From positions 1 to 23,504 of IMG/VR virus record IMGVR_UViG_3300042560_000673: DNA of 23,504 nucleotides. The stretch is one strand, 5' to 3'. Within the stretch, counting starts at the first letter, position 1. The number at the start of each line of letters is the position of its first letter. The notes beneath the pieces are model-generated. The model was not told where the DNA came from, did not search any database, and saw only the letters and a list, made by a program, of their open reading frames with translations. Positions 1 through 20,245 of this stretch are shown in pieces. The position numbers and the translations under genes were made by a program. This DNA comes from a virus.

Positions 1-3000
1 TCAACTACCATAGTATTAGTTGTATTATCTGTTGAAAATACTTGAGCGTCAATAGGATCAGTAGCAGGTTTGATTATACCTCCTGTTGTAAATCTAAATG
101 CTGAGTAATTGCAATTTAAAAATACTGCTTGGAATCCAGTAGCAGAATTTTCAATCAAAGGATTTATCTGTGTACTTGATTTGATTAATTGATCTCCGTT
201 TCCTACTTCATAAACATCAATTCTTAATTTTTCTGGATCAGAAATGTTAGTATCAAGTTCAATTGTTTTATTGACATAATCGCTAGTATAGCCATTTCCT
301 TCATAGATTGTAGTGCATAATCCATCACTTCCAATTATGTATACGCTAATACATGCAGGCACCTGTACTACATCAGCGAAACTATAAACATTATCTGCGT
401 TTGCATCTAATTCAATTGATACAACATTATAACCAACATGTGCATACTGTGTTGCTGACCAGTTAGTACCTGCTCTTGTAGTGACTATCATAGTCAACTG
501 GTCTGATACTACACCAGGTACTAATTCTTCCGGGCCATAACCTGCTTGGAACGGATCACCTTGAACAGTATAGACAGGTTTTACTAGGGCAAATACCTGC
601 GTTCTATCCCAAACTACTGGATCAGTAGTAGTATTTGAAGTTTGTAGTAATGTATTATCATCACCACCTATCGTATAAGTTGCATTTGATGTTTCATAAT
701 ATATTACGTTAAGATCATTTAATGTGCCGGTTGCACGTTCAGTCCAGGATGTACCGTTAGTTGTACTTACTTTAACAACACCATCATCGCCTACCGCTGT
801 GAATACATTGTTTACACAAATCACATCATTTAAGTTTTTACCAGAACTTAATATTAATGTCCATGCATTTAATGCTGAGGCTTGATAGACAGTACCGTTA
901 TTACCAACTACAACTATTACATTGTTGTTGTATGTTACAGAATTTAATGTTGAATTATTTGCGGTTCCGATATAATCTGATGAACTTACTTTAGTCCAAG
1001 TAGTTCCGTCAGTACTGTAGACAATTAATTTTGTGCTATTGTCGGTACCTACTGCAACATACCCTGTAAAGAATGATGTATTAACATAAGAGACATCATA
1101 GAAATACCCTGAGTCAGTATCAAACTTATAAACTTCTGTCCAAACTGTGCCTGTGCTATCACTTAATAATAATGTATTACCAGCAGCAATATATTTGTTG
1201 TTATGATATATTACGCTGTGTAATGAAAGTTCTGCTTGTGTTAATAATATTTTTTCATATGGGATATCAACAGGATCTGTGTCATAAGGGATGAAGTACC
1301 CATTGCTTGAGAATACATATCCATTAACACTCTTCATGATAGGTGTTGCTGAATTTGTAGTCGTCATTACATAGATACCATTATTGTTTATGATATCAGT
1401 CAAACCTAATGGATAATCACTTAGTTTACCTAATAGCCAATTATCTGAGACTTCAATATCCATAGCCAAGACACTTGAATTAGGTAAATTTGCAGGAGCA
1501 ATATAATTTACACCGTTAAACGTAATTGCTTCTACGTTTACTCCTGTTGGATAAAATTCTTGATCTTGTAATATAGTATCAACAGTAAACTGATCGGCAG
1601 GATCAAATGCATTTCCTTGATATACTGTATTTGGATATGTTAATCCAGTAAATAACTGCGTTAACTCGTCGCCCGGCATATTAACATCAGGTTGATAATA
1701 TGCGAATGCACGGTCTAGTGCATTTAATCTGCGATCTCCACTATCTAATTCTTCCCACTTACCGATATTAAAGTCGCTGTCATTGTTTGATACGACACAA
1801 ACATAAGTTTTATTATTGAATTTTACGATACTTGGAGTAAAGTAGAATGGTTCAGGTAAGAACATGAAACTACCTGCAGTAGCCATAGTCATAGAACCGT
1901 TAGCATCATCCGCAAAATTAATTACTGTACCACCTGGATTGTTAGTTAGACGAACTGTAGTTGATGTAGGTTTGTCGTAGATATAATATATTTGACCTAA
2001 CACAATCTCATTTGAGAACATCGTACCTGTAAACACTACAGGATCGTTTACATTAAAGTCTGTAGAACTTGTAACCGTAACTCTATCATCACTTGCTGTT
2101 ACATTTGTAGCAGTGGTAACCGTATATCCTACAAAGGCTAAATCGTCTGCTGAAACTGGAACTGTCATTCTAGGATCGCTATAAACATTGAAAGTATTTG
2201 CACCTGCTACCTTCAAGTAATAACTTTCAACTATATCATTAGGATTACCTTGACAGTTTACGCTAGTAATATTTCCTTCTGATTGTAGAGGTAATGACCA
2301 AACATATTCGCCTTCTACTACAGGATTAATCTGATTTACTACGATAGTCAAATCATTTGAAGGAGTAGTGCCGCCTAATAGGTTTCCAGCAATGCTTATA
2401 GTATTATCAACCGTAAATCCTTTACCACCGCTACTTATAATTGCTGTGTAGCCACCTAAACGATAGCCAATATCAAAAGTAGGTGCTTCTGTAATTTTCT
2501 GTACTAAATCTACAGGGCCTGTTCCAGGACTTAAAGTTTTTATTGCACCATTATAAGTGTCTGATACTGTTATATATGGCGCTCCCGTGATTGTAGCAGT
2601 ACCTACAGTATTAACTAAACTTGCTACACCTCCAGTTAAAGTGGCTTTTACTTTAAAATTAGTCAAGTCTACAATACTATGTACATAATAAGTTTGTCCT
2701 ATTTGTAATCCACCTAGTGGGAAGTTTGATATCACTATAGGCATGTCTACCATTAAATTAGTAGTAGTGGTTGTTAGGCTCACTGTTATTGTGTTATCTG
2801 AACTTGAAGATGAAGTACCTTGTAATGTTACATTACCAAACGTGTTAACATAGTATGCAGTTCCTGCTGTTAGACCACCTATACTTGTACCTACTGTGAT
2901 CGGTAATCCTTTATATACTCTTTGTATTCCACCTGCATCACGATCTAAAATCATATAATTCTGTTGACTGACTGGGACAGATCCGCTAGGTGGTACTGTT

Positions 3001-6000
3001 TTTAATATACTGCTTTCTACAAGATTACCGTAATTTATAGAAGTAATATTTTCAAATTCTTGACTTGATGAGTAGAATATAAATTGCTGTCCGTTAACTT
3101 GTCCAGGACTTGCAGGCAACTGTACGTTGACAGTCATGTTTCCTGTCGCAGATGTTAATTCTACATTATTTTCTTGACTTACAAAGAAACAATAAGTGTT
3201 GCTGCTTGATGCTACAGTTGTGACTGTAAATACTGCACCGCCCAATGTTGTGCTTATTGTAATAGTGTTGATGCCAATTGATTTTACATAATAAAAATTA
3301 CCAGCAACTATGTTACCAAAATTAGTAACCTGGTTACCATTAATAGTCATGTTACTGAATACGATTTGATCACCTACACTCAATCCAGTAGTGTTCTGTA
3401 CAACAATTTGATTTCCACTTACAATATAAAGGGCTTTGATTCTAGTAAATGAATCACTTGCTGAAATTGTAAATCTTTCTTTATCAATGACAGAAGTCAC
3501 AAAGTAAACAATATTTTCTTCAATACCGCCAAACACATTACCGACAAATTCAATTGGTATACCTGTGTATAGTCCTTGGCTTCCGCCTTGACCTATCGTT
3601 GTTAATGGAACAGTTACGATATTATTAGTGCTGCTAGTTGCTGTTGCTGTTCGTATGCCAGGATAATTTGTTGCGATTACCGCAGTGCTCACGTCTTGTC
3701 CTGTATAGCATCTTACTCCTAAACCACTTATAGTTAATGAGTTAAGAGTGACTACAGGACCTGTCAATGATGATTTGATAGTGAAATCAGTATCATTTAT
3801 AACTTCAGCAATATAATATACTGTGCCAGATTTGGTTTCAATATCAAATGCTTGTAATCCTGAAGTTCCTAGATCACCAGCAAAACCTACAAGCATATTT
3901 TCAACAAAACCTATAGTTGATCCGCTAGCATTTTCTGTTGAAGTGTTTAGTTTTAATCTGATTTTATTGCCTGTTGATATAGTGCTTTCTACGCTACGTT
4001 CAAATTCAGACCAAACTGGTTGAGTATAATTAGAAATTTCTGAGATTGGTAATACAAGTCCTTGATTGCTTGAAAGCATATTGGCAATATCAGGCAACGT
4101 GCTTTCTAGTGTAATACTTGAACTTGCAATATTCTCTGTATTGTTATAAGATCCTGCAAAGAATGAGCCATAAAAACTATTGGCTTCCCAATCAACTATT
4201 TGTGTGTTGTAACTTGTACGATCATATCGTAGAGTGATATTATTTTCTCTTACTGGATAACTTGAACTTACTGCCGCTGCTTTAGCACCCAACTTAAATG
4301 TATGAGATCCTGTGCCTTGACTGAATATTTTCACTCTGGTATTTTCAGCACCATAAATTGCATCTGCGTATGAAGTGTATAATGCTATGATAGTTGTAGG
4401 AACATTATCTAATACACGTACATAGTACCACTGGTTATTTTCAAGACCGCCTACTTCTGTACCTTCACCGCTTACATATCTTATTAGGTCTCCTGTTACT
4501 AATTCTGGAGCATATAATTCAAGTGTATTGACAGGGCTAATAGCGATATTAGTGCTATCTACTGTGAAGTCGTAGGCTGAGTCAATTATTATTCTAGGTA
4601 ATACTGCATATCCAGAACCAGGATTTATAACATTGACGCCTATTACCTTATCAACACGCATCACCGCTTCTAGAACTGCTTCTTCTCTTGGTTCAGGATA
4701 TATAGCAGTATCAATAAAAGCAGTTACTTTAGGAGGATTGGTATATCCTTTACCTGTGTCTAGTATGACTATTGCAGGTAAATCAATAAAAATGTTTTCT
4801 CCTGGGATATGATATGCAATTTCAGTACCATTAACTCCGCGTATTAATCCTGATAAACTGTTTGTGTCTCTATTAACTTGCGTATATCCAATCAGTTCGT
4901 ATACATTAGGATCTGCGACACTACTTACTTTTATAGTACCCGTTACAGGGAAACCAGAAACGTTATCTACAATAATAAAATCACTATTCAATGTGACGTA
5001 TGAACGTAGTGTTGAAATGTTATAATCGTTTTGTCCAATCAAACTTAAACCGTAATTGTTTCTCCATTCAGAGTAACTTTGAGTTGTCCAAATAGCATTA
5101 TTAGGCAAATATTCGCTTACTAAAGTTGGATTAGTATAAACCAACTCCGGACTGATAAATGATTGATTTTCAAAACTATATTCTGCAGGTAAATCAAAGT
5201 CCGTTATATTACCTTGATACCAGTCTATTCCAGTATATGTCAATAAAAATTCTTTGATGACAACGTGATATGGTTTTGCCTCGTTCAAATAACCAGATAA
5301 AAAGTCTTGATTATCATTTTGGAAATTTTGAATAGGCTTTAAATCTCTAATTTTGTGAGAAACATCAATTAAAGAAGTTTTATTTAACCATGGCAAGTAA
5401 TTTTGATTTTCATATGATTCTGCTTGTATGTAATTAAACAACAATATTAATGATCTATTACGGAAAATTAATAATTCATCTGTGAAAATTTGTTCGTTTA
5501 AGGCACGTATGATCCATCGTGTTTCTTCGCTAGGATAATTATCAAATGGTTGTGAGCCATAAAAATCACTACCAAAACCTATATTATTAGAACTATAATC
5601 CCATAATTCTGATTTGAATCTAACAGTTCCGTTTTGTAATCCTATGCGATTCCATTTACCTTCGTCTGTATAAATGTAAGTCTCACTATTACCTTGTCCA
5701 TTTTCTAATACAGTAACTATGCTTCCGGGTGCTACCTCTAAAGTTAGTAAATCATTATAAGCAGGTACCTGCATGATTGCTTTAGTATTATCATTATATC
5801 CTGGAACCCACCAATTTACATATTCCCAATAAAGTGAAGTGTCATAAAATTCTCCTGATTTAAATAAGAAAGGAATTCTAGGACGTATTTCTACGATTGG
5901 AAATTGCTTCAATATTGAATTACTATATTCTAAATAATTTTGAAGTGCTTTTAATCTATTATAGAAGAAACTCTGTCTTGGACGGGCCAATATACCACTT

Positions 6001-9000
6001 TGTACTGTCTTTGGCAAGAATGGATCTGGAACAACAGCACCTACTTCATCTGTACCGCCTAAACTGTCTATCAATCTATCATACAATGATCTTGGTGCTA
6101 TATTACCGTCAACAAAATTAGGTACTCCTGGTAAGAAATCGTTAGCAAAATTTTCTCTGATCAATTGATATTCTTCATGTTGAATAGTATTATTTGCTGA
6201 AGAATAACCTATATGTAAGACGCTATCATTTGCATTTATATATTGTTGACAGTTATATAATGCAAATGTATTCGGTAATAATGGGGCGATGTAACTTATA
6301 CCAGATCCTAATGGATTCAAGATATAATTAGCAACATTGACATCTGCTAAACTCTTATTTCTAAATTTAATTCCAGAATTTTTAACCCAGAAGAAATATA
6401 CCGGCTCAATAGTGTTTGATGCATTTAGTACTGTTTGAACTGAATATAAATCTATATTTCTAGGTGTGCCCGAGCCTTCATATTCAGAAGGGGGAACGGC
6501 GCTTGCTATCCATGAATAAATTGCTACGTCACTACCAGGAAATAATGTTCCCCAATATTTCGCATTATAAGCATTATCATTCTGATGATAATTTACAAAT
6601 CTTACATTTGAAGTATCAAACCACACAGTGCCTACTTGAGTCGATCCCCAAACAAATCCACTTTGTGTATTATTATCATTATTATAAGACGCAGGATCTA
6701 TGTTAGAAATTACGTCAATATTCTGTCGTATTGCACCTAATAATTTACCTTGTAATGGATCAAAATAATCTAAGTTAGTTAGTGTTTGATTCAACTCAGC
6801 ACTGAATATTTGACTGTTATCAATTTTACTAATATCAACAATTTCGTTTGTTTGTCTAAATTCTTTCCAGTTTGGCAATCCTGTTTGATTGATGTAGACT
6901 ACTACTTGTCCATCTATATCATCTGGACGATAGCCCGGTGTGCCTATAATCACTTTATTACTTGTAAAGTCTAACGCTGTACCATAACGAGGTTGTGAAC
7001 CATATACTTGACTCTTATCATTTGTGCTTTGAGCATATGTAAACGCACCTATATTGTTTAATGATTCTCTGTAATTTGAGAGATAATCAAACAAATATAC
7101 TGCACCTGCATTTGTATAAGTGTCTATAAATTGTGTAGCGTTATTGTCAAATATTGTATCATTAGTAAAATCTAAATCATCTATAAAATCAAAAGTAGTT
7201 TGAGCATAGCGTGTGCCTACTGGCGCACTAATTGCCACGCTATTAAACTCATTAAATTTAACGACAGTACCAAACTGAGTTGGTCCTGTCAAATGTGGAC
7301 ATTGTATTACTTGAGTTTGTGTGAGAACATCAATACCCAACTCTGCAAAAGTATCAACATCTGTGGAAGTTAATACTATCTGCTGGTTTGTGACTCCTAA
7401 TTCAGGTTTTATTAACTGAATATTTAATTTGTTGTTTATCGCTGTTGCTGTGATATTAGTTATTTGCGCTGTGTTTATTGCTAAGGCTGCTAGTTCTGCA
7501 TCACTATCTACTGGAATAGTAACTTCATATCCGTTAATCAATAACTTACGGTTAGCAGTTGTATCTACAGTAGAAGTACCAGTTATATTACCAAATCTTG
7601 CTCCGGCATTTGTATAACGATATACTGCCCCTTCTTCATTTTCAGAACTTAAAGCGAACGGTGCACCTACTAAAATTTCTGTGGCAAATCTATTATTATC
7701 AATGCTTGTACCGAACCCAACTCCTATTCTAGGAGTAGTTTCAGTTGTGAGAATTTGATTTAATGTAAATTTATTACCGCTTATTTTAATAATATCGCCT
7801 ACGACGAAAGTACCGGAGTATATTAGACTTGAACCACTTATAGAATAATTTGATTCGTCTACTAATACGCCGTTTAGATAAACATTAACTGTTTTGCTAG
7901 GGTCAGGAGTCCATGCTAACTGAAATGTTGTCGGATCATTTGTTGATGCTGTTTGTGTTTCAAAATTTTGTATTGATCTAGAATAATAATAAGCCTTGCC
8001 CCAATTTTCAGTTGATGCATCAAAATCTTCGTTGGGAGCACCTATAGTTACTACGTCTCCATAATAATTTGTAGTTATTGAACTTCCAAACTTATCTATT
8101 GTAACTGTTGGACCCGCTATAGTAGTAATAAATTCATAACTGCGTTTAATTACAGTGCCTTGATTAAACGGAATAGCAGTACCAGTTCCTGATCCTATAC
8201 TTATTGCTGTGAAAGTATCGCCCGGTGAAGGTGTCTCGCCCACATTAGTTGGTAGCCAGCCTGCTGCTGACCAGTCAGTAGTACCTAATGAACTAATAGT
8301 ATACTGTTCACCTATGACGAAAGTTCCTGCAGTAGATACTAAAGGTCCTGTTGCTTGAAAAATAATTCCTACTTTATTTTCTGGAGCGCCTACATTTGTA
8401 AAATCGTTTGCTCCTAAACTTATAATCTCATAATAGGTGCCATTTACTAATTCGTTAGCGTTGAATATGCCATTAATTCTTCTGTAAACATGTACATTGT
8501 TTCTTGCGACAGGTTCAGCATCATCAAAATCACTTATAAACAGCCAGTTACTATCACCGGACATTGCCATGCTGGAACCAAAATTTGTACATCCAACTGG
8601 GGCACTAATCTCTTGTAAAGGATTGATATCATCTGTAACGTATGTGTCGTTGACATAGTACAGGAATACTTTTGGTGTGCCTACAGGCTGTGAGATCGCA
8701 AAAATGTTTTGTCCTTTTACGATTGTTGTTCCGAATGAGGTACTTTTTTCAATAATTTGATCAGGATCGTAAACTTCAGTGATAGGATCATATTGGTATC
8801 TAAACACACGACCCATGCCTGCATCACTGAATAAAAAGTCTCCTTGTGTAGTGTAGGACACAGCACTACCAAATGTGCTTGTATCATTTTTCTCTTCGTC
8901 AGGTAGTGTATCTTTTGTGAATTCAATGTCAAATTCGTAATTGATTCCTTTACGATAGACAGCCCATCCACCATCATTGTTTGTATCTACCCAAACTTTA

Positions 9001-12000
9001 TTGCTTACAAATTCGTTGTTCAATAATAGTAAATCTTGGATATCGCTAGGTTGTGCAACTCTTTGTGATACGAACTGATAGGCGATTCCTTCGCCTGTCA
9101 ATGTCAAAGTGCTATTTGATAAGTTTAATGGTATTATAACTTGATATGGACTTACTACTTGTAATACTGTGAAGTATCCATTTATTAAATCATTAAAATT
9201 AATAATAGCAAAAATATCATTGATTTGTAGTGTCTGTGCTTGTCTAAAGAATATCGTAGTAGTACCATTTAAATTTGATCTAGCCCCAATGACCTGTCCT
9301 AACACATTAGGTGTCAATACGTTCCAGTTTGCAAGATAATTTGCAACATAAGCATAATCACCTACATAAAATTTATTTAAAGGTACGACTAATCCTGCTT
9401 CGTTTACTGCTGCAGGGAATCCACTAAAGAAGTATGATGACATTTTGACATCATTAAAGTTTACATATCCTGCATCAGGGAAAATAGTGTTTGGTGTGTT
9501 GGAATTCAATGTTGGTAAAACATCTGGATTTGTTATCGGTTTGCCATAATTGAACAAACTGTAGATAGGAACAATTTCTTGTGCCTGTTGTACCGGATTA
9601 CCATTTGTTAAACCTATGATGCTTGGGTTATTTGTTAGTTTGCTTTGGTTGAGTTTAAATTCAATGAAATTGTTTTGTAACACGCCACCGTACACACTGT
9701 TTAATATTGCCCAGTTTTCATGAAGGTCGTAATCTATTCCGCCTTGAGGTAAATCAGCGCCTTTAAAGACATCTAGTATAGCGCGTGTACCTTTTTCTTT
9801 GATCATGTTTTTATAAACATTGACCTGTGTGATATCGGTTAAGTCTGCGCTTACCATATATGGACGAGAGCGATAACCAATTAAACTAAATGATAATTGA
9901 TCTGCATCTTTTTCAAGATTTGCTTCGTTTACATTATAATATAACGAACTTTCATAACTTCTTGTGCTGCTGTTAGGCAACAGACCTTTTTGAACTTCAT
10001 CGTAATCTGTTTCTTTCCAATCTGCCTCTGTGAATGTTTTTGAAGGCTGAACGATTTTTAATGCTGTCCAATACTTGTTTTTAAAACTTACAATCTCACC
10101 CTTTGTATATTTTACAGCCGGTGTCCATTCTCGTATATTATCTTGATTATAGATAAATCCACTTGCATTCATCGTGCCGTTCCATTCAGCACTCTTAGTA
10201 CCCTGCAAGTAAATTCTATTTTGTTTTAATCCCGTGATTAAATTATAAATGACATCATTGAAAATAGTTTTATTATCAAATACTATACCATGCTCAATAT
10301 TACTCAAGTTAAATTGACCATAAGATATTGTATCGCCGTCTTTTAGTGCAGTGACACTAAATGATGTACCTTCTCTGACTATACTTAAATCTCTATTTTC
10401 AATAGGATATAAGTTTTGATTTAAAATAAAGTTATTATTGTGTATAGATAGAGGTTGCACTATCAAACTTTCTGCATTAATAGCAAGAGTATTTGCTGCT
10501 GGATTTAAAGTTATTACGCTACTATCAACAAAGCCGATCTGTGCCCAATATAAAAACTCACCGATCATCTGATTCCAGTCAAGTTGCACTCCTGATTCAA
10601 TTAACTCGTATTCACAACCTTGTGATATCAAATAACGTCCATAACTTGCAAGAAATTGTGCTAAATCCTGTGTTTTTCTGAATACGCTTCCATATTCAAC
10701 GATTTCAACTTTATCTGTATAATCTTTAGCGACCTTTACGCTTAAATCTTGTATAATGATGTTGTTTACGTTACCGTTGTTGATAGGTTTTAAAATTGAG
10801 AAATAATTAATATTCTGGCTAAAGCCATCTACGCGATAACCATTTGGAACTTTTTCTACGCTGACTGCACTATAAATTATCTTTGTGTATGGTTGATTTT
10901 CATATAATAATACACTAAAGTTTTCATCAGGTATTAACAAAGAAGAATTGCTACTGTTAGGTGTGCCTTTCTCAACAAAGAACTTTAACAATGTCTTGTC
11001 GCTGAATCCTGCCAATCTATAGACTAATCGTACATCTATATTTTTGAACAAATTAGTTATATTAGTTGTAGCATCTACGCCTAGTTGTTTTTCATAATCA
11101 ACTATCCAGTTAATATAACTTGTTTTAGCAGTGCCGTTACCATAAATTTGTATTTGATTAGGAACAAGATGGCTGCGATCATTAACAAGATACTGATTAA
11201 ATTCAGCGTTGTATTTGTAATTGTCTAGGTCTACTGCTAAGTTAAAGAAGTTGGCAGGTTTTAATAAAGCGCCCAATCGTACTAAATCAAAGGGCCATGT
11301 TGAGCTGCGACGATAACTGAATTCAACAGGACCAAGATCGCCTACTATCCATTGATCTGCAAATAGACTTGGATCATATGTTCCTACTATTGAATTCAAT
11401 GGGCTCTTTTGGCTACCGTCTTCATTTACAGGAAGTATTAATAAAAAGTTCTCAAACTCTGTGTCCCACTCAGTGGTATCTCTAGTGAAGTTTGATTTTT
11501 TATAGCGAGATAATGTTATAGGATTGCCGTTATTGTAATCAATACCGTCAAACATATCTGCCCACAATATTAAGTTATCACTTGTATAAGGGCTTGGACC
11601 ATAACGTTCATCCCACCAAGCAGGTTTATTAGCGTAGCCAATCATTTCCCATGGTGTAGTGGCTGGTGTTGAAGTACTGAAGTAGTAAATGTATATACCT
11701 CTCCAATTACCTTGAAGCAACAAGTCACCTGTTACTTTTGCCCCTGAATCTCGGTAGTTGTATGTATATGAATTACTTTGTGTAAAAATATGATCCTTAT
11801 AATCAAGTTTATTATTTCCTACCCAATCTAAGAATGCAGGAGAATATGCTGTCAACCAGTTATTATAATATTCAGTAGTATCTTTGTAATAATTAGGAAT
11901 AATGTCAGCAGCATTAATAGGAATAGTTGAACTTAATTTAATGTTGTTGTAGACACGTTTCTCAAACTCAAATAAAACTTGATCCCTATAATCGGTTAAA

Positions 12001-15000
12001 CCATATAATTCACTATATTGACCGTATAGTTTTGTATAAGACCCATCGTGTCCTACTATAAAATATGTCGGGGTAATATATGTTTCATCATAAATTACCT
12101 TAGGCACAGTTACAGGATATAATCCTAATTTACTTGGTGTATTAGGAACATAAGAGCCATAAGTTTGATTATATTCATTGATGATAACTTGATCACCAGT
12201 AATTAAATCTTTTGTGATAGTAAGTGATGGGCTATCTTTGCTTACAGTATAATCAATATTTTTATATAATAACTCTGTAACTGTAGTTCCCTGTACTTTA
12301 CGCTTTAGATAAACTAAAATACCATTATAGTTTGCTGTTTCATAATTATAAACTTTGCTTAAACCAAATGTCGTAGTTCCGATATTATTAAAAAAGTTAT
12401 AGACGTTTGAAATATAAGGAGCCTTGTTTGGTATCATGTCTGACCAAAAGAAAGGCATCTCTTGATTCTTGACGCTTGATATAATATCAAGTGTATAATC
12501 TAATAATGCACCTGCATCGTAACGTTGTTGCCAATCTATCTTATTAGCAGTATCTACTAATAATGATTTAAACTTTACATATTCTCTGCTATTGAACAAC
12601 AGTGCTTCAAATAAGTTATGCTCTTTTTGTCTTAGGAAAGCACCTGGTATTACTAAACTTGCACTATTTTGTATAATGCGATTACCCCATGGTACAAGAT
12701 TACCTAAATCGCGTGTATTGTTTGCTCCAAATACATCGCCGGTAGTGTCAGGATTATTGTAGAATATGCTTTGATATTGACCACGTATATCACCAACGTC
12801 AACTGAAGTAATATCAGTATTAAATGGATTGTTGCTTAAGTTTATAGGGATAGTATAAAATGCTTGCGTACTTACTTTATCGCTTAAAATTAAAACTTGG
12901 ATTACTGTTTTTTCAAGTGCAGGGATATTTACAGTTACACTAGTGCTTGTTTCTGTATTTTGTACAGTATAATCAGTGATAAGATTATTATTATTAAAGA
13001 CTTGAATAGATGGCCATATAGTATCTTCAACATTTAATTGTGGAACATCGCAAGTAACTGTAACATCTAAAGTTGTTGCATCTAAAGAAGTTAAAACAAC
13101 ATTAGGAGGTGTGTAAGGAAATTCAAATACTTGATACTGAGTGCTTGGGGCAACCGCAGTTTGCCATCCTAGTAATCTTTCATAAGTTAATCTTCCGGTC
13201 GTATTATACACATACCCTGTATTAACTTTTTCTGTTTCAGTAATATTTTGTTCTAAACCAGTAACATAATTGAATTCGTCAACGTTTAATGATACTTCAA
13301 AAGAAATATCTCCTGTATTTCTAATACTACTAAACGTGATAGGGAAACCCAAAATAGTATCGTTAACACCACCTAAATTTACTTTATAGTTAAACAATTC
13401 GCAACCTTGGAATGTGGTTGACTTATAGATGCTTGTGTCACCAAAACTTATACCGTTTTTATCAAACACATCAAATTTTGGAGGTTGATTTACTTTGATT
13501 TTCTGTTGAGCCACATGGAACAATACACCTAACTCATCTTCATCATAATACCAACTTACACCTTCATTGTTTTGTCCACGTAAAACAGCAAACTGATCAT
13601 TAGTTAAAATTTCTCCATCTAATGCCTCAGTAAAAGTTAATACTGGATATGAACCAGATATCGTAGTTGAAAAATTGGCTACAAAAATTTTATTTGAAAC
13701 TTCTGGATTAGTATCGGCAGAGAATACAACTCTTGCACCTGAAAACAATGCTAAGTCAGCATTATTTTTAATACTTGCTACAAAACTTGCGTCTCCTGAG
13801 GTAGGCAATACTATAGTAGGAGTTGGCCAATTTACAGTCATTGTTGTAGTTGTAGTACCACTAATAATATCAAAAATACGTGTACCAACAGGCAGTTTAC
13901 TTTGTTCTCCTAATATTAGATCATTGATGTACATGCCTGCACTTAGTGTACCTGTGATATCAGAAGTGGGGATAGTAATCGTAGTATTAGTTTGTGCTAG
14001 CGCAGTGCCGTTACCCTGTATCGCTGTACCCGTACCTACGGCTGGAGCGGTAGCAGTAAAAGTTCCACCTACTGTAGGAGTGCCTACATAACCAATGTTA
14101 TTCCATAGTGTGCTGCCTACAGATACAATTGTATATTGTAATCCTGAGACTAAATCAGAAGAATTTAGTAATCCCGAAATCAATGCAGTAAACAAAACGT
14201 TAAATGCCTGACCTCCACCAGATCCAATTATCTCACCTGGATATGCACATTTAAATGTTGAATTTTTTGCGTATGTGACACCGGTCGTTCCAGCAATTTT
14301 GTTCCATGCTGCTTGTGATGTGCTACCTAGATTCCAGATTATGTACTCTTGACCGACAACAAATTGTCCGTCTACACCCAGTGTCGCACCTAATTGCTCC
14401 CAAATCGTTACGTCTGTGGTACCTAGATTTGCAATTTTATATTGTTCACCTACTATAAAATCTCCGCAATTTACAGTAGGATTTGTTGCAATAGATCCTG
14501 TATAAGCCGTGTATGTGCTGACATCAGGATAGTAACCTGCTTGCCCTGCTACAGTTGAAAGTGCGTCTGTGGTTCTAGTGTCAATAAAGTCAACTGATTC
14601 TTTGCCTACTGTGCCAGAGTTAAACAATCTTAAGTTAGGATAAAATTCAAGTATAGGTCTTTTTGCTTTGTTAAAACTGCTAGCAAGGTTTAATATATTT
14701 GGATTACCATTATAAACTGCTGTGTCGCTAATTACTTGACTATGGAACCATCTATTACTGCGTGACCAAGCATTCTTATTGATACTATTTCTAGCAATAG
14801 TAATATAGTCGGGAGTTAAAGGTAAGTTTAAAGCCTCGTCATAGTTTTCAATATCATAATTGGTCATGTCATACGCAATTGATGTATCTGTAGTAAAAGA
14901 TTCTGGAATTAATAATGCCGTTGTAGGAATTAATTCAATTGCTGTACCTACTCCTTCTACATAATATTCGCCTTGTTGATAACTTGTAGGAATAATATCT

Positions 15001-16286
15001 CCGCTAAAAGATACTTTTAATCCATTTGTAAACTTAATTCCATTTGATGAAGTAAATGATTTTTTACCTAATATCTGAGTCTCTACGTCAAGAGTGTTTA
15101 AATCATTATTTTCAATTAATTTTATAATACCTACTTTGTTCGGATTCACACTATCTTGATAATACAGTGTATCCAATGGTGCTGAAATAAACGGAATAGG
15201 TGCAATTGAAGTTGTTTTGACAAAACCAATGCCTATATAAGTAGAACCATATGAAGGAGTTATTTTTTCTTCGTTGTAGATTACAGCATCAGGTGCTAGA
15301 GTAACGATTGGGTCTACAGGACTTGAACTATAATCATATGTGATTTTATAGAAATTATCTGATGGGAAAGTTCCCGTGATAGTTTCAGTATCAGCATTAT
15401 AAAATAGAATATTGATGCCGTTTAATGCAGTAACGCCGTCAATATTTCCTACTTGGCTCAATGGTAAATTTTGAATTTGTTCTATACTTTTTGTTGATAC
15501 TACGAATGCAGGTACACCTACTCCTGCTTCATAATTGTATTGGTCCATTGCATCTTTTGCAGGAACATTAAAGGTTATTGTTCCTGATTCTGCGCCGTTA
15601 TTGATCACTCCACCTAATTCTGTTAGTCTTACACTAAAGTTAGGTTGTGTTAAACTAGTGCCGTTTATTCCGGGAGCGCCTTGAATCCAAAATTGAGAGT
15701 CTTGATTTACATTAAAAGTATAAGTGCCACCGCGTATCAAAGTAAGCGTAGGATTATCAGAATATCCAGTTGCTCCCAATGGCTTAATTTGATATGAATT
15801 TTCTGCGCTAACCACATCATATTGATTTTCAAGGTACACAACTTCGTTTGTAACTACTACAGCAGGAGGTCCTTGTGGTAACCAATAGTATTGATTGAAG
15901 TTTATAATTTTATCTAGGTCTGTAAAACTATCCCAACTATAAAATTGACTTTCAAATAAATCATTATTATTATTTGTTAATCCATACTGAAGTTTTAATG
16001 CATCTAGTATTCCTGGATAACTTAAAAAATCATTTGCTTTGCCCTGATTATTCTTTAAGAATACTACACCCGGCTCTAATTGATAATCTTTTCTAACTTT
16101 AGTAGGTTCAGTTACATAAAAATCATTAGCATTTACACCATAACCTATAGTGCTACCAACGAAACCTTGTATCTTACGTGTTACAGGTGGATTTACCAAT
16201 TGATCAAGGGTAGCCGACAAAAATTGCTCATTTGTTGGCGTTTGAAAAATTTCTGGTAGAAAATCTAAAGTTCTAATGCGTGTCAT
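1..16286 (-). CDS. Giant modular virion/baseplate protein, partial (C-terminus beyond left edge)
   Basis: The frame opens at ATG 16286 (MTRIRTLDFLPEIFQ...) and I find no in-frame stop before the left edge: 5,428 codons are visible, about 600 kDa. The start lies 7 bp after the gp6 stop, with no clear Shine-Dalgarno sequence. Segments in order (residues approximate): 1-145, N-terminal region I associate with structural proteins of T4-like aquatic phages (TEPTKVRKDYQLEPGVVF, NFNQYYWLPQGPPA); 169-253, cupredoxin-like; 483-590, NAWSRSNRWFHS motif; 600-759, three GTTD modules; 1145-1255, partly helical segment (NPDTTGDVFG, LFNSREYVKFK); 2054-2090, CBM5/12-like; 2470-3135, FG-GAP propeller with insertions; 3765-3825, RGVNGT module; 3909-4788, YYV modules; 4916-5223, Ycf48/BNR-like propeller. 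The rest is beta-rich, Asn/Thr/Tyr-rich sequence I cannot assign. Position after gp6 matches T4 gene 7, but I see no sequence likeness to gp7. A peripheral baseplate or receptor-binding role is inferred. Confidence 0.9.
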   Translation of the reverse strand, partial: MTRIRTLDFLPEIFQTPTNEQFLSATLDQLVNPPVTRKIQGFVGSTIGYGVNANDFYVTEPTKVRKDYQLEPGVVFLKNNQGKANDFLSYPGILDALKLQYGLTNNNNDLFESQFYSWDSFTDLDKIINFNQYYWLPQGPPAVVVTNEVVYLENQYDVVSAENSYQIKPLGATGYSDNPTLTLIRGGTYTFNVNQDSQFWIQGAPGINGTSLTQPNFSVRLTELGGVINNGAESGTITFNVPAKDAMDQYNYEAGVGVPAFVVSTKSIEQIQNLPLSQVGNIDGVTALNGINILFYNADTETITGTFPSDNFYKITYDYSSSPVDPIVTLAPDAVIYNEEKITPSYGSTYIGIGFVKTTSIAPIPFISAPLDTLYYQDSVNPNKVGIIKLIENNDLNTLDVETQILGKKSFTSSNGIKFTNGLKVSFSGDIIPTSYQQGEYYVEGVGTAIELIPTTALLIPESFTTDTSIAYDMTNYDIENYDEALNLPLTPDYITIARNSINKNAWSRSNRWFHSQVISDTAVYNGNPNILNLASSFNKAKRPILEFYPNLRLFNSGTVGKESVDFIDTRTTDALSTVAGQAGYYPDVSTYTAYTGSIATNPTVNCGDFIVGEQYKIANLGTTDVTIWEQLGATLGVDGQFVVGQEYIIWNLGSTSQAAWNKIAGTTGVTYAKNSTFKCAYPGEIIGSGGGQAFNVLFTALISGLLNSSDLVSGLQYTIVSVGSTLWNNIGYVGTPTVGGTFTATAPAVGTGTAIQGNGTALAQTNTTITIPTSDITGTLSAGMYINDLILGEQSKLPVGTRIFDIISGTTTTTMTVNWPTPTIVLPTSGDASFVASIKNNADLALFSGARVVFSADTNPEVSNKIFVANFSTTISGSYPVLTFTEALDGEILTNDQFAVLRGQNNEGVSWYYDEDELGVLFHVAQQKIKVNQPPKFDVFDKNGISFGDTSIYKSTTFQGCELFNYKVNLGGVNDTILGFPITFSSIRNTGDISFEVSLNVDEFNYVTGLEQNITETEKVNTGYVYNTTGRLTYERLLGWQTAVAPSTQYQVFEFPYTPPNVVLTSLDATTLDVTVTCDVPQLNVEDTIWPSIQVFNNNNLITDYTVQNTETSTSVTVNIPALEKTVIQVLILSDKVSTQAFYTIPINLSNNPFNTDITSVDVGDIRGQYQSIFYNNPDTTGDVFGANNTRDLGNLVPWGNRIIQNSASLVIPGAFLRQKEHNLFEALLFNSREYVKFKSLLVDTANKIDWQQRYDAGALLDYTLDIISSVKNQEMPFFWSDMIPNKAPYISNVYNFFNNIGTTTFGLSKVYNYETANYNGILVYLKRKVQGTTVTELLYKNIDYTVSKDSPSLTITKDLITGDQVIINEYNQTYGSYVPNTPSKLGLYPVTVPKVIYDETYITPTYFIVGHDGSYTKLYGQYSELYGLTDYRDQVLFEFEKRVYNNIKLSSTIPINAADIIPNYYKDTTEYYNNWLTAYSPAFLDWVGNNKLDYKDHIFTQSNSYTYNYRDSGAKVTGDLLLQGNWRGIYIYYFSTSTPATTPWEMIGYANKPAWWDERYGPSPYTSDNLILWADMFDGIDYNNGNPITLSRYKKSNFTRDTTEWDTEFENFLLILPVNEDGSQKSPLNSIVGTYDPSLFADQWIVGDLGPVEFSYRRSSTWPFDLVRLGALLKPANFFNLAVDLDNYKYNAEFNQYLVNDRSHLVPNQIQIYGNGTAKTSYINWIVDYEKQLGVDATTNITNLFKNIDVRLVYRLAGFSDKTLLKFFVEKGTPNSSNSSLLIPDENFSVLLYENQPYTKIIYSAVSVEKVPNGYRVDGFSQNINYFSILKPINNGNVNNIIIQDLSVKVAKDYTDKVEIVEYGSVFRKTQDLAQFLASYGRYLISQGCEYELIESGVQLDWNQMIGEFLYWAQIGFVDSSVITLNPAANTLAINAESLIVQPLSIHNNNFILNQNLYPIENRDLSIVREGTSFSVTALKDGDTISYGQFNLSNIEHGIVFDNKTIFNDVIYNLITGLKQNRIYLQGTKSAEWNGTMNASGFIYNQDNIREWTPAVKYTKGEIVSFKNKYWTALKIVQPSKTFTEADWKETDYDEVQKGLLPNSSTRSYESSLYYNVNEANLEKDADQLSFSLIGYRSRPYMVSADLTDITQVNVYKNMIKEKGTRAILDVFKGADLPQGGIDYDLHENWAILNSVYGGVLQNNFIEFKLNQSKLTNNPSIIGLTNGNPVQQAQEIVPIYSLFNYGKPITNPDVLPTLNSNTPNTIFPDAGYVNFNDVKMSSYFFSGFPAAVNEAGLVVPLNKFYVGDYAYVANYLANWNVLTPNVLGQVIGARSNLNGTTTIFFRQAQTLQINDIFAIINFNDLINGYFTVLQVVSPYQVIIPLNLSNSTLTLTGEGIAYQFVSQRVAQPSDIQDLLLLNNEFVSNKVWVDTNNDGGWAVYRKGINYEFDIEFTKDTLPDEEKNDTSTFGSAVSYTTQGDFLFSDAGMGRVFRYQYDPITEVYDPDQIIEKSTSFGTTIVKGQNIFAISQPVGTPKVFLYYVNDTYVTDDINPLQEISAPVGCTNFGSSMAMSGDSNWLFISDFDDAEPVARNNVHVYRRINGIFNANELVNGTYYEIISLGANDFTNVGAPENKVGIIFQATGPLVSTAGTFVIGEQYTISSLGTTDWSAAGWLPTNVGETPSPGDTFTAISIGSGTGTAIPFNQGTVIKRSYEFITTIAGPTVTIDKFGSSITTNYYGDVVTIGAPNEDFDASTENWGKAYYYSRSIQNFETQTASTNDPTTFQLAWTPDPSKTVNVYLNGVLVDESNYSISGSSLIYSGTFVVGDIIKISGNKFTLNQILTTETTPRIGVGFGTSIDNNRFATEILVGAPFALSSENEEGAVYRYTNAGARFGNITGTSTVDTTANRKLLINGYEVTIPVDSDAELAALAINTAQITNITATAINNKLNIQLIKPELGVTNQQIVLTSTDVDTFAELGIDVLTQTQVIQCPHLTGPTQFGTVVKFNEFNSVAISAPVGTRYAQTTFDFIDDLDFTNDTIFDNNATQFIDTYTNAGAVYLFDYLSNYRESLNNIGAFTYAQSTNDKSQVYGSQPRYGTALDFTSNKVIIGTPGYRPDDIDGQVVVYINQTGLPNWKEFRQTNEIVDISKIDNSQIFSAELNQTLTNLDYFDPLQGKLLGAIRQNIDVISNIDPASYNNDNNTQSGFVWGSTQVGTVWFDTSNVRFVNYHQNDNAYNAKYWGTLFPGSDVAIYSWIASAVPPSEYEGSGTPRNIDLYSVQTVLNASNTIEPVYFFWVKNSGIKFRNKSLADVNVANYILNPLGSGISYIAPLLPNTFALYNCQQYINANDSVLHIGYSSANNTIQHEEYQLIRENFANDFLPGVPNFVDGNIAPRSLYDRLIDSLGGTDEVGAVVPDPFLPKTVQSGILARPRQSFFYNRLKALQNYLEYSNSILKQFPIVEIRPRIPFLFKSGEFYDTSLYWEYVNWWVPGYNDNTKAIMQVPAYNDLLTLEVAPGSIVTVLENGQGNSETYIYTDEGKWNRIGLQNGTVRFKSELWDYSSNNIGFGSDFYGSQPFDNYPSEETRWIIRALNEQIFTDELLIFRNRSLILLFNYIQAESYENQNYLPWLNKTSLIDVSHKIRDLKPIQNFQNDNQDFLSGYLNEAKPYHVVIKEFLLTYTGIDWYQGNITDFDLPAEYSFENQSFISPELVYTNPTLVSEYLPNNAIWTTQSYSEWRNNYGLSLIGQNDYNISTLRSYVTLNSDFIIVDNVSGFPVTGTIKVSSVADPNVYELIGYTQVNRDTNSLSGLIRGVNGTEIAYHIPGENIFIDLPAIVILDTGKGYTNPPKVTAFIDTAIYPEPREEAVLEAVMRVDKVIGVNVINPGSGYAVLPRIIIDSAYDFTVDSTNIAISPVNTLELYAPELVTGDLIRYVSGEGTEVGGLENNQWYYVRVLDNVPTTIIALYTSYADAIYGAENTRVKIFSQGTGSHTFKLGAKAAAVSSSYPVRENNITLRYDRTSYNTQIVDWEANSFYGSFFAGSYNNTENIASSSITLESTLPDIANMLSSNQGLVLPISEISNYTQPVWSEFERSVESTISTGNKIRLKLNTSTENASGSTIGFVENMLVGFAGDLGTSGLQAFDIETKSGTVYYIAEVINDTDFTIKSSLTGPVVTLNSLTISGLGVRCYTGQDVSTAVIATNYPGIRTATATSSTNNIVTVPLTTIGQGGSQGLYTGIPIEFVGNVFGGIEENIVYFVTSVIDKERFTISASDSFTRIKALYIVSGNQIVVQNTTGLSVGDQIVFSNMTINGNQVTNFGNIVAGNFYYVKSIGINTITISTTLGGAVFTVTTVASSSNTYCFFVSQENNVELTSATGNMTVNVQLPASPGQVNGQQFIFYSSSQEFENITSINYGNLVESSILKTVPPSGSVPVSQQNYMILDRDAGGIQRVYKGLPITVGTSIGGLTAGTAYYVNTFGNVTLQGTSSSSSDNTITVSLTTTTTNLMVDMPIVISNFPLGGLQIGQTYYVHSIVDLTNFKVKATLTGGVASLVNTVGTATITGAPYITVSDTYNGAIKTLSPGTGPVDLVQKITEAPTFDIGYRLGGYTAIISSGGKGFTVDNTISIAGNLLGGTTPSNDLTIVVNQINPVVEGEYVWSLPLQSEGNITSVNCQGNPNDIVESYYLKVAGANTFNVYSDPRMTVPVSADDLAFVGYTVTTATNVTASDDRVTVTSSTDFNVNDPVVFTGTMFSNEIVLGQIYYIYDKPTSTTVRLTNNPGGTVINFADDANGSMTMATAGSFMFLPEPFYFTPSIVKFNNKTYVCVVSNNDSDFNIGKWEELDSGDRRLNALDRAFAYYQPDVNMPGDELTQLFTGLTYPNTVYQGNAFDPADQFTVDTILQDQEFYPTGVNVEAITFNGVNYIAPANLPNSSVLAMDIEVSDNWLLGKLSDYPLGLTDIINNNGIYVMTTTNSATPIMKSVNGYVFSSNGYFIPYDTDPVDIPYEKILLTQAELSLHSVIYHNNKYIAAGNTLLLSDSTGTVWTEVYKFDTDSGYFYDVSYVNTSFFTGYVAVGTDNSTKLIVYSTDGTTWTKVSSSDYIGTANNSTLNSVTYNNNVIVVVGNNGTVYQASALNAWTLILSSGKNLNDVICVNNVFTAVGDDGVVKVSTTNGTSWTERATGTLNDLNVIYYETSNATYTIGGDDNTLLQTSNTTTDPVVWDRTQVFALVKPVYTVQGDPFQAGYGPEELVPGVVSDQLTMIVTTRAGTNWSATQYAHVGYNVVSIELDANADNVYSFADVVQVPACISVYIIGSDGLCTTIYEGNGYTSDYVNKTIELDTNISDPEKLRIDVYEVGNGDQLIKSSTQINPLIENSATGFQAVFLNCNYSAFRFTTGGIIKPATDPIDAQVFSTDNTTNTMVV
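615..1550 (-). repeat. Seven Ycf48/BNR-like repeats, second predicted beta-propeller (giant protein)
   Basis: Seven units begin with [LV]-x-x-[VI]-x-[YF]-[ND]-[ND] and continue to a G-[ND] turn and, in most, a W-[TD]-x strand. Starts: VEAITFNGVNYIAP (about 1535), LTDIINNNGIYVM (1405), LHSVIYHNNKYIAAGN (1225), FYDVSYVNTSFF (1110), LNSVTYNNNVIVVVGNNG (950), LNDVICVNNVFTAVGDDG (830) and LNDLNVIYY with TIGGDDN (725). Asp-box-like loops are visible as YSTDGTTWTKV and STTNGTSWTER. This is the layout of sialidase/BNR and photosystem-assembly Ycf48-type propellers, and seven units would close one ring. Sialidase catalytic residues are not evident, so a binding or scaffolding role is more likely than catalysis. 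Confidence 0.7.
1925..4560 (-). repeat. Row of about seven diverged 'GLxxGxxYYV' beta modules (giant protein)
   Basis: Related units of 50-80 residues occur at about 4560-4310, 3985-3730, 3630-3430, 3425-3200, 2935-2830, 2800-2610 and 2115-1925. The shared pattern is an acidic/polar start, a D-x-[IV]-[VI]-F strand, then G-x-x-x-G-x-x-Y-[YF]-[VI]-x-x-[IV], and a closing F-x-[IV] strand with G-G. Examples: MPIVISNFPLGGLQIGQTYY then VHSIVDLTNFKVKATLTGG; DPVVFTGTMF then LGQIYYIY; GGIEENIVYFVTSVID then RFTIS. At the DNA level the copies are too diverged to look repetitive, so this is an old duplication. Confidence 0.65.
4810..4990 (-). other. RGVNGT-type structural module (giant protein)
   Basis: Residues ~3765-3825 contain VSGFPVTGTIKV, a YELIGYTQVN strand and LSGLIRGVNGTEIAYHIPGE. 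This resembles a small module often met in phage structural proteins, in which a 'new surface' strand pair ends in a conserved Arg-Gly-x-x-Gly-T turn followed by A-x-x-H. Directly after it, at about 4780-4600, come GKGYTNPPKV and NPGSGYAVLPRI, two copies of a Gly-Tyr-Thr/Ala turn motif also common in such proteins. Confidence 0.5.
7400..7930 (-). other. Two further inserted domains between propeller blades 4-5 and 5-6
   Basis: Between blades 4 and 5 (about 7930-7770) is a fibre-type module: WTPDPSKTVNVYLNGVLVDE followed by YSISGSSLIYSG and a VGDIIKI strand. Between blades 5 and 6 (about 7570-7400) is RKLLINGYEVTIPVDSDAEL followed by AALAINTA and ITATAINNKLNIQL. That resembles the hook_IN-type motif of flagellins and hook proteins (a hairpin, a helix, then a strand). 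Blade 5 itself lies in the middle of this span. Function of either insertion is unknown. Confidence 0.5.
8155..8460 (-). repeat. Two GTTD modules inserted between propeller blades 3 and 4
   Basis: Two copies of the module seen at 13990-14490 sit here. One reads VNGTYYEIISLGANDFTNVG then VGIIFQATG. The next reads IGEQYTISSLGTTDWSAAG then GDTFTAISIGSGTGTA. The second copy carries the fullest form of the motif, including the closing GSGTGTA. They interrupt the FG-GAP propeller between two of its blades, so they would project from a loop at one face or edge. Confidence 0.75.
10017..10127 (-). other. CBM5/12-like carbohydrate-binding segment (giant protein)
   Basis: Residues ~2054-2090 read EWTPAVKYTKGEIVSFKN, KYWTALKIVQPSKTF, then EADWKE. 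This follows the compact pattern of CBM5/12 modules: an opening Trp, Y-x-x-G-[DE]-x-V, a short hairpin, a second aromatic [YW]-x-A, then Pro and a closing Trp. Such modules bind chitin, cellulose or other glycans, and short relatives are found on tail fibres. Surface-glycan binding is inferred. Confidence 0.5.
13990..14490 (-). repeat. Three tandem GTTD-type modules in the giant protein
   Basis: Three diverged copies of a ~35-residue module lie in a row. Copy 1 (about 14460-14365) has GEQYKIANLGTTDVT then an LGATLGVDGQF end. Copy 2 (about 14357-14246) has GQEYIIWNLGSTSQAAWNKI then GVTYAKNSTF. Copy 3 (about 14145-14010) has GLQYTIVSVGSTLWNNIG then VGGTFTATAPAVGTGTA. The shared pattern is G-x-x-Y-x-I-x-x-[LV]-G-[ST]-[TL], a Trp or Ile-Gly, then V/G-x-x-F. 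Modules of this type occur in large phage structural proteins and are likely small beta domains; their ligand is unknown to me. Confidence 0.7.
15530..15785 (-). other. Cupredoxin-like beta segment without copper ligands (giant protein)
   Basis: Residues ~169-253 read LTLIRGGTYTFNVNQDSQFW, then IQGAPG, then TITFNVPAKDAMDQYNYEAG. The spacing and the strand-Gly-Gly-Thr-Tyr-Thr-Phe opening resemble cupredoxin-like beta-sandwich domains, in which a His follows the second strand and a Cys/His/Met cluster follows the FTVP strand. Here the expected His, Cys and Met ligands are Gln, Asn and Gly/Val, so it should not bind copper. Fold assignment is tentative. Confidence 0.4.
15850..16286 (-). other. 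N-terminal region of giant protein, probable baseplate-attachment part
   Basis: The first ~145 residues are the most conserved-looking part of the giant protein. They hold LDQLVNPPVTRKIQGFVG, a GYGVNANDFYVTEPTK stretch, a YPGILDALKLQYGL helix-like stretch and the aromatic NFNQYYWLPQGPPA. I associate this layout with the start of very large structural proteins placed next to gp6 in T4-like phages of aquatic bacteria. An N-terminal anchor to the wedge with receptor or surface domains further out is inferred from general tail-fibre architecture, not shown by the sequence. Confidence 0.5.
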
Positions 16287-16293
16287 TTTATTA

Positions 16294-19200: not shown

Positions 19201-19737
19201 AATTTCTGCTATATTTCCTGGTCTACCTATGCGTTGGCTATCTACTAAAGCAGCATTAATTATCGTATTAAATTGCTCAAACCAATTTGGATTTGCGGGG
19301 TCATTCCATAATACTGTGAGATTGCTTAGATTAACTCCATTAAAATCTACTAGATTTTGAGTAGTTTGAATGCTAGTAACTTTGAGTAATCCCTGCGCTT
19401 CTAAATTTCTTTTCGGAGTATAACTTACTAAGTTTGCTAACTTAACAACGCTATCACGGCGTTCAGCAGTATCAATAAAGTTTTCACGGGCATTCAAGTC
19501 ATTTCTAAATGCTAGACCTTGACCCATGAACGCCATAACGTCTAATAATGCGATAAATTCGCTTGATTCAATGTAGTCGTTATATGTTTCAGGGTAGTAT
19601 ACGCGCAAATAATCTATGAAACTCTTGCGTAACGTTTCATAATCATAACTCTGGAAATCAGCCTCACGAAAGGTCTGATATATCGCCTTCCAGTCATTTA
19701 TACCAAACAAAGCACTTTGTCTAGAACTTGTAGCCAT
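16294..19737 (-). CDS. gp6: Baseplate wedge subunit gp6 (T4-like)
   Basis: In contractile phages gp6 dimers join neighbouring wedges into the ring around the central hub. The N-terminal part has the expected pattern: FLRVYY-like helix, SSEFIALLDVMAFMGQGLAF (residues ~58-77), NDLNARENFIDTAERRDSVV and LVSYTPKRN. The last ~130 residues match the gp6 dimerisation end: WNFGDTFFFSELSAYLHNQL, SSAVLVPNN and APYEIFVNG. At 1147 aa it is much longer than T4 gp6 (660 aa); the extra length is a beta-rich middle, roughly residues 450-1000. Start: ATG 19737, with a GAG at 19747-19745 about 7 nt upstream as a modest ribosome binding site. It ends in three consecutive in-frame TAA codons and is followed after 7 bp by the giant gene. 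Assignment is strong. Confidence 0.95.
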   Translation of the reverse strand: MATSSRQSALFGINDWKAIYQTFREADFQSYDYETLRKSFIDYLRVYYPETYNDYIESSEFIALLDVMAFMGQGLAFRNDLNARENFIDTAERRDSVVKLANLVSYTPKRNLEAQGLLKVTSIQTTQNLVDFNGVNLSNLTVLWNDPANPNWFEQFNTIINAALVDSQRIGRPGNIAEILGVTTAEYALQIPAESLPIVPFTSTVDGITMGFELVSVTSVDEDYLYEIPPAPTGRFNMVYQNDRLGFASPNTGYFFYFKQGSLTNFDFVLEQQIANQAVNIDIQGINNEDTWLYQLNLNNNTRTLWRKVDNVYANAYLQTETSKKSIFSVSSRFNDQVTYNFGDGVFSNIPVGTFRAYVRSSNGLTYTIDPSEMQGINVAFNYITRQGKVETLAIGLQLTQPVSNAQARESLPSIKQRAPTRYYTQNRMVNGEDYNNFPYTLYSSIIKSKAINRSSVGVSKNLDLLDPTGKYSSTNTFADDGSIWENNEDTVLTLAINNTPSDIIAFITDTLASVLALNRSNQYYINQSSDSITAWYKRFDLPTNAADPETGSQVMYWASSTVDANSQTGYFYNLDQGSEVPAFVGIFSTTNAKYVTKGALIKFRAPDNYYFDNNNRLVEGISGPNKPNTLWTTVLNVIGDGTNTGQGQFSNGTGPVTLNGYVPAECILEQIIPAFDNSLPVEVVQDAIIKMELQQSFSLVFNNSLLINQNRWIVRPVNDSNWFVKFVSDPAINRYTITVKSLKYYFGSVSETRFTFATNEIVYDPFSGKILQDFVNVLGINTQPESLDALGRDYKVNIVGQTVETDGYVNDFQVEISATDINNKQLILNPDFFTTITGVTSDGNNAGFYVFFETVQDPINLTRLQLVPVNTINFQYSTKNEIEDVKYEYPVGQLFFANQEPLESNPAIKGVFYKTVQDTSVTTISYQLVIQDQFSFKYGRQGLSYQYRHNSNNTTRIDPATTNIIDLYVVTQSYYTAYQNYIQDSTNTVPKPSTPTIAELSASYGKVQDYKMLSDSVVLNSVVFKPLFGPKADPALRGTIKVIKTNTTTASDSEIRSAVLTAMNTYFDINNWNFGDTFFFSELSAYLHNQLGDLISSAVLVPNNPNEPFGTLYEIKSAPYEIFVNGAVAENILVIAALTPNELQIA

Positions 19738-19754
19738 AATAAATCTCGTTTTAT

Positions 19755-20232: not shown

Positions 20233-20237
20233 AAAAC

Positions 20238-20245
20238 TATTTATG
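20238..20245 (-). promoter_or_regulatory. Candidate T4-type late promoter overlapping the gp5 stop
   Basis: CATAAATA on the minus strand, one base off TATAAATA, overlaps the TAA stop of gp5 (20243-20241). A start site ~6 nt downstream would fall on or beside the gp25 ATG at 20232, giving a nearly leaderless message. That makes a working promoter for gp25 less likely than the similar site before gp6. It may be a chance result of the stop codon in AT-rich sequence. Confidence 0.25.

Follow-up and report, generated by a model that had tools for sequence, protein, structure and literature searches.

A giant gene behind gp6 in an environmental phage contig probably encodes a baseplate wedge scaffold in the T4 gp7 position

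The window, that is the whole stretch of 23,504 nucleotides analysed here (IMG/VR virus record IMGVR_UViG_3300042560_000673), contains four genes that all lie on one strand, in the order gp5-gp25-gp6-giant (Table 1). An open reading frame scan of the window followed the giant frame from its ATG through 5,428 codons without a stop to the left edge, where it exits, its 3′ part lying beyond; the other five frames stay open for at most 69, 89, 96, 164 and 1,155 codons, the last value belonging to the gp6 frame. The end of gp6 (position 16294) is found 7 bases ahead of the ATG of the giant gene, and the uninterrupted frame of at least 5,428 codons directly after gp6 that a preliminary description of this DNA had reported was recovered at exactly the same position. 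Positions 16286-16300 hold no clear Shine-Dalgarno sequence ahead of this ATG, and the leader is A/T-rich. The gp5-like hub gene (20241-23504) has a long C-terminal part rich in Ala, Ser and Asn.

Table 1. Genes of the window and features of the giant protein (residue numbers refer to the full-length protein)
Feature	Position	Strand	Basis
Giant protein gene, gp7 position (residues 1-5,428 of 6,505)	3..16286	minus	Open frame; PHROG 10938; complete in contig G001
Conserved N-terminus, residues 1-150	15837..16286	minus	Opens with LPxxF..TxxNxxFLxxTLDQL helix motif
GTTDF-type repeat, residues 604-628	14403..14477	minus	E 8e-6
GTTDF-type repeat, residues 715-754	14025..14144	minus	E 8.3e-4
Conserved core 1, residues 850-2,050	10137..13739	minus	Conservation; model of compact relative L240
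Fibre-adaptor-like domain, residues about 1,049-1,146 (L240 523-614)	12849..13142	minus	VIA Z up to 8.7 for L240
CBM5/12-like segment, residues 2,053-2,075, sub-threshold	10062..10130	minus	18.8 bits (Pfam cut-off 26.2)
Propeller 1, FG-GAP-like, residues 2,440-3,150	6837..8969	minus	FG-GAP_2
Two GTTDF-type repeats inside propeller 1 region, residues 2,614-2,647 and 2,652-2,702	8181..8447	minus	E 1.8e-9 and 3.9e-9
Conserved core 2, residues 3,150-3,730	5097..6839	minus	Conservation; own model, pLDDT 82, pTM 0.55
Helical hairpin, residues 3,586-3,627, candidate gp6-binding element	5406..5531	minus	Helices 437-451 and 454-478 of core 2 model
FP module, residues 3,755-3,830	4797..5024	minus	hhalign 96.2%, E 2.5e-9, versus cyanophage gp7-position giants
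Region of seven YYV-type repeats, residues 3,918-4,801	1884..4535	minus	Trained repeat model
Propeller 2, Ycf48/BNR-like, residues about 4,930-5,240 (outer borders by eye)	567..1499	minus	Ycf48 profile matches
gp6, baseplate wedge subunit, 1,147 aa	16294..19737	minus	PHROG 10646, E 1.1e-257
gp25-like baseplate wedge/sheath initiator, 149 aa	19783..20232	minus	PHROG 43, E 1.4e-9; Pfam GPW_gp25, 27.8 bits (cut-off 27.2)
gp5-like baseplate hub protein, 5′ end open	20241..23504	minus	PHROG 13211, E 2.8e-12

A second contig (G001; IMGVR_UViG_3300044627_001013, 49,919 bases) carries the gene in full; its alignment to the window, 23,387 bases long and free of gaps, has 5 mismatches (99.98% identity). 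Through this contig the frame could be extended to a stop codon, as had been suggested earlier: the gene ends with TAA after 6,505 amino acids (715.8 kDa), its C-terminus lying outside the window as claimed. Full-length frames in nine contigs, including this one, range from 5,928 to 6,747 amino acids. Among 80 related loci fetched with gp6, of which 77 were checked by script and 75 had enough downstream sequence, the frame is open to the locus end in all 75, over lengths between 37 and 3,332 codons; the set includes several loci that hardly differ from the window or from one another. Comparison with two relatives gave dN/dS ratios of 0.053 (3,219 codons) and 0.069 (3,157 codons), indicative of purifying selection, with 0.02-0.12 in every 500-codon block tested; dS is near saturation (1.2-2.9), which makes these ratios rough, and the comparison reaches only to about codon 3,200, near the middle of the gene. 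The giant frame is a real, conserved gene: selection, the 75 open loci and the sister contig bear out the earlier assertion that a frame of 16.3 kb cannot be due to chance, and an assembly join is not likely, since independent contigs carry the same frame.

In profile searches, the protein matches PHROG 10938, a family of virion structural proteins (model length 3,324, category head and packaging), with E values of 2.7e-167 for residues 1-2,000 and 5.8e-83 for residues 2,001-4,000, and no match to this family was found in residues 4,001-5,428. tblastn retrieved 63 phage records with gp6 and 30 with the first 1,000 residues of the giant protein. RaK2-like, PA5oct-like and Atu_ph07-like jumbo phages encode members of the same family, with the same core blocks and the same place after gp6, the giant gene standing directly behind gp6 in nine of the ten cultured relatives inspected. 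These proteins are shorter than that of the window: Phosso, 4,555 amino acids; Atu_ph07, 4,449; PA5oct, 3,857; GAP32, 3,341; CBB, 3,340; XaC1, 3,332; Hallingskeid, 3,330; RaK2, 3,326; and XacN1, 3,313. The exception in gene order is Salicola phage SCTP-2, whose relative (gene 140, 3,807 amino acids by record coordinates) lies away from gp6; two giants stand side by side at this locus (L114), at 633-9923 (3,096 amino acids) and 10001-20438 (3,807 amino acids), the second being the relative. Virion mass spectrometry bears on two family members: CBB_236, tied here to the CBB genome record by its gene number, is reported from virions by mass spectrometry with 21 peptides and 7.72% coverage (PMC5259590), and the record of PA5oct gp355 bears the note ESI-MS/MS. 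For phage AP-J-162, a structural protein of 4,455 amino acids is listed beside a wedge protein of 1,198 amino acids (PMC11242549).

Two IMG/VR scans with core-1 alignments yielded at least 527 and at least 574 confirmed stretches, in sets that may overlap. In 50 environmental contigs taken from these scans, each longer than 50 kb, the frames measure 3,677-7,757 amino acids, some of them maybe cut by contig ends; these contigs were chosen for carrying the gene, which is therefore present in all 50 by construction, and only the lengths inform. Since 25 of the 50 frames reach at least 5,900 amino acids, the window protein is ordinary for its clade. The preliminary description had considered it exceptional among phage structural proteins, a view that finds no support in the comparison with jumbo phages (3,313-4,555 amino acids), with this half of the environmental contigs and with the cyanophages discussed below (4,446-6,180 amino acids): the gene is impressive, not of a new kind, and relatives of similar size are already known. 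The longest frames among the 50 contigs, 7,757 and 7,575 amino acids, belong to G027 and G050 (loci L155 and L219), and G028 (locus L159) is the sole case with one TAA inside the core match, possibly an error or a broken copy. In a collection of bacterial and archaeal genomes, none of 12 pattern-matching stretches encodes a relative, in a search with one protein as query that reaches close relatives only.

Compared with eight environmental and four cultured relatives, the chain is conserved at residues 1-150, 400-600, 850-1,300, 1,350-2,050, 2,100-2,300 and 3,150-3,750, and variable from 3,750 to 6,400, after which a conserved tail follows; the order of core blocks and tail is kept in all nine full-length environmental members aligned. 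Helices are predicted at residues 7-10, 18-26 and 29-32 of the N-terminus in the model of the compact relative L240. The LPxxF motif of the N-terminus is reminiscent of tail protein I families, a likeness for which Pfam and NCBIfam gave no support and which was set aside. The AlphaFold2 model of the first 1,200 residues of L240, built with 69 sequences, reached a pLDDT of 85.2 and a pTM of 0.84. Foldseek found no PDB match to it at an E value of 0.001 or better; CBA120 tailspike 4 and tail proteins head the list. Most of the model is matched by predicted viral proteins in BFVD, that of Atu_ph07 among them. VIA gave a Z score of 8.7, with an rmsd of 3.5 over 72 and 74 residues within residues 523-615 of L240, a Z score near 8 being a value that can reflect a common arrangement; of the first eight VIA rows, one is a tailspike and the other seven are tail, fibre or portal-tail proteins. 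The match to fibre-adaptor folds covers residues 523-615 of the model, and the conserved YxIPxNLxNNP motif served to place the domain by eye on the window protein. Core 2, modelled from the window protein itself (pLDDT 82.3, pTM 0.55), shows a hairpin and then a low-confidence stretch; no structural match with a Foldseek E value below 0.7 was found for it, and its best VIA Z score is 5.5 over 52 residues of a tailspike piece. T4 gp7 is absent among the structural matches listed for core 1 of L240 and for core 2, which excludes nothing. With regard to the gp6-binding core bundle and trifurcation fold of gp7, the models show helical elements at the N-terminus and at residues 3,586-3,627.

Two different propellers had been proposed for this chain, and both were recovered, one FG-GAP-like and one Ycf48-like. 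For propeller 1, FG-GAP_2 matches at an E value of 1 or better in nine of nine members (best 3.6e-9), the window copy (1.3e-3) lying below the Pfam cut-off, and its profile found no significant PDB match (best 0.087). For propeller 2, a profile of eight members matches the Ycf48 structures 8am5 and 5ojp in the PDB at 6e-5 and 9.9e-5, PSII_BNR is detected in two of the eight members, and no Pfam propeller match was found with the window copy alone; a model made from the other seven members identifies four blades in the window, at residues 5,021-5,188. It is in blade sequence that the two resemble Ycf48-like and FG-GAP propellers; they differ in being built as modules into a phage protein. Among the matches listed from searches of open-licence PMC papers, none described propellers in a protein of this kind.

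At least two families of repeated beta modules, also claimed at the outset, found support from GTTDF and YYV models trained on the other eight members and applied to the full protein, which contains 4 GTTDF-type and 11 YYV-type copies, 7 of the latter wholly within the window; the copies are not fully independent tests, because some of the seeds are these very modules, taken from relatives. A twelfth YYV match, at residues 16-84 (E 0.0035), was discounted, one seed having lain in the N-terminus of G012, and crude counts of YYV and GG motifs in the window protein, which hardly exceeded those in shuffled sequences, were replaced by the trained models. Neither repeat occurs in the four cultured relatives tested (Phosso, Atu_ph07, PA5oct and GAP32), for which reason part of the extra length of the clade is attributed to module amplification; P-HM1 has two YYV copies. 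The glycan-binding-like segments of the preliminary description have weak support, from two CBM5/12-like segments of 18.8 and 12.6 bits that both miss the Pfam cut-off of 26.2. Chitin-binding modules do match an insert at another place in the family profile (6.3e-4), and the annotation of the gene in phage vB_Pa-PAC2 names a chitin-binding domain.

In T4, gp6 is followed by gp7, and the window giant occupies the place of gp7 behind gp25-gp6. T4 gp7, the baseplate wedge initiator of 1,032 amino acids, is described as a monomer present in six copies per tail and as part of an ordered wedge assembly (PMC3004832). The likeness consists in the place after gp6 and in a putative wedge role, whereas T4 gp7 is six times shorter and has no detectable sequence similarity: neither its Pfam domains nor its sequence matched the window protein or its family in Pfam, profile or blastp searches. 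In profile comparisons, the whole-family profile scored 0.1% against T4 gp7 and 0.3% against the cyanophage giants, the helical region 0.2% against T4 gp7, and the N-terminus 0.2% against cyanophage N-termini and 0.4% against T4 gp7. As a control, cyanophage N-termini failed against T4 gp7 too (0.4%); whole cyanophage giants, run alongside the whole-family profile, scored 65.7% against T4 gp7 (E 5.8e-5), so the T4 gp7 negatives carry some weight. Homology to T4 gp7 thus found no support, and the sequence evidence leans against it.

Like the clade of the window, the three T4-like cyanophages inspected have a single giant frame directly after gp6, of 6,180 amino acids in S-SM1, 5,195 in P-SSM2 and 4,446 in P-HM1, the last annotated as gp7, baseplate wedge initiator; they also have one module in common with this clade. 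blastp of the window protein and eight environmental relatives against the cyanophage giants gave no match. Of the 16 matches to cyanophage and T4-type targets, Atu_ph07 accounts for 10 and Phosso for 6; they lie in repeat regions, and their targets are S-SM1 and P-HM1 (best 4.7e-7). The window protein and the other 15 queries gave none, and P-SSM2, T4, RB49 and K491 received none. This repeat likeness of Phosso (L094) and Atu_ph07 (L095) hints at a common pool of repeat modules.

The shared module, termed FP, stands behind the hairpin in the window and aligns, in the cyanophage giants, with the stretch that follows directly on the N-terminal helices; in a longer alignment (93.0%), the hairpin remains unpaired with these helices. 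In 55 of the 56 environmental frames that have both, the module follows the KPYH motif by 83-108 residues, the remaining frame having it at 493. A search of 2,177 open frames from 22 loci located the FP model, outside environmental members, in the gp7-position genes of P-HM1 and P-SSM2, in the S-SKS1 frame beside gp6, in SSM1_104 of S-SM1 and in one more unannotated S-SKS1 frame, and did not find it in cultured jumbo relatives at an E value of 0.01; the gp7-position copy of S-SM1 itself was found only in a smaller search. When the ten cultured relatives were searched alone, FP matches were short, weak and near C-terminal ends or elsewhere, the best (6.1e-5) lying near the C-terminus of Atu_ph07. 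In S-SKS1 (L120), the 7 kb behind gp6 (21287-28284) have no annotated gene and contain open frames of 710 codons, beside gp6, and 1,601 codons. Judged from these alignments, FP is a structural module that both groups have at a similar place; it falls short of proof of common descent, because it is missing from the shared core, other frames carry it and the hairpin is unpaired.

Downstream of the giant gene in G001, none of the seven nearest small frames received a baseplate name or matched a gp8 family. PHROG 11259, of unknown function, is matched by the first of them (3.3e-67), and PHROG 14394, a virion structural protein, by the first 72 residues of the second (2.2e-11).

Taken together, the giant protein, which takes the place of T4 gp7 in the gene order, is probably a baseplate wedge scaffold of a jumbo myophage related to T4. 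This reading is supported by the gp5-gp25-gp6-giant order, the adjacency to gp6 in nine of ten cultured relatives, the T4 order gp6-gp7 and the P-HM1 annotation, as well as by the virion detection of the CBB and PA5oct proteins, the fibre-adaptor-like domain, the FP module, the propellers and repeats, and the conservation map. Gene order, virion detection in relatives and a hint from the fold thus carry the wedge role, and the adhesive role of the arm is a further step that we infer. Confidence is lowered by the 65.7% control and by the fact that the shared core lacks the FP module, and further points against a wedge role are the lack of a T4 gp7 match and of a structural match for core 2, the position of the SCTP-2 gene, the head category of the PHROG and the lack of a gp8 match among the seven genes just downstream in G001.

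As a wedge scaffold, one copy of the protein per wedge would bind the gp6 dimer through helical elements, either the N-terminal motif, the hairpin at residues 3,586-3,627 or both; it would help to build the wedge and reach outward as a long arm. The fibre-adaptor-like domain of core 1 may dock fibres or spikes, and the propellers and beta repeats could serve as spacers and adhesion surfaces, altered by gain and loss of modules, the C-terminal half having presumably grown by module amplification. With six copies, as for gp7 in T4, about 4.3 MDa would be added to the tail tip.

An alternative that we regard as unlikely is that the protein takes no part in the wedge and is a tail fibre or adhesin whose gene just happens to adjoin gp6. 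The propellers, beta repeats, CBM-like inserts and fibre-adaptor-like domain would all suit such a protein, as would the SCTP-2 relative away from gp6 and the missing gp7 match; however, the core blocks in the first 3,750 residues are kept across phages of different hosts, unlike typical host-range fibres, and the gene adjoins gp6 in all cultured relatives inspected except SCTP-2. That the product is a polyprotein, cut into several virion proteins, is improbable: its sheer length and the processing of head proteins described for phiKZ-like jumbo phages (PMC13282480) speak for cleavage, whereas the constant order of core blocks and tail in the nine full-length environmental members aligned speaks against it. 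A head or packaging protein, as the category of PHROG 10938 would have it, is more improbable still, given the baseplate genes upstream in the window and in cultured relatives and the fibre-adaptor-like fold. The category itself looks doubtful, the neighbours being baseplate genes. That the frame stems from a frameshift or an assembly error, or covers several genes that start internally, is scarcely credible, the sole point in favour being that metagenome contigs are unverified, against the near-identical independent contig, the 75 unbroken loci, purifying selection and the long frames of cultured genomes.

Under the wedge scaffold reading, a very common unnamed giant gene of environmental phage contigs is now linked to baseplate genes. 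Its conserved core and growing modular arm have been mapped, with domain borders that are testable by structural work on cultured relatives, and giant genes prove to follow gp6 in two groups of phages, jumbo phages and cyanophages, reaching equal size in the latter. More speculatively, and with considerable doubt on our part, the aquatic clade may have fused wedge scaffold, fibre docking and adhesion surface in one chain of about 5,900-7,800 residues, six copies of which would surround the tail tip as an adhesive skirt of several megadaltons, with a reach and a surface that evolve by gain and loss of YYV and GTTDF modules rather than by swaps of separate fibre genes.
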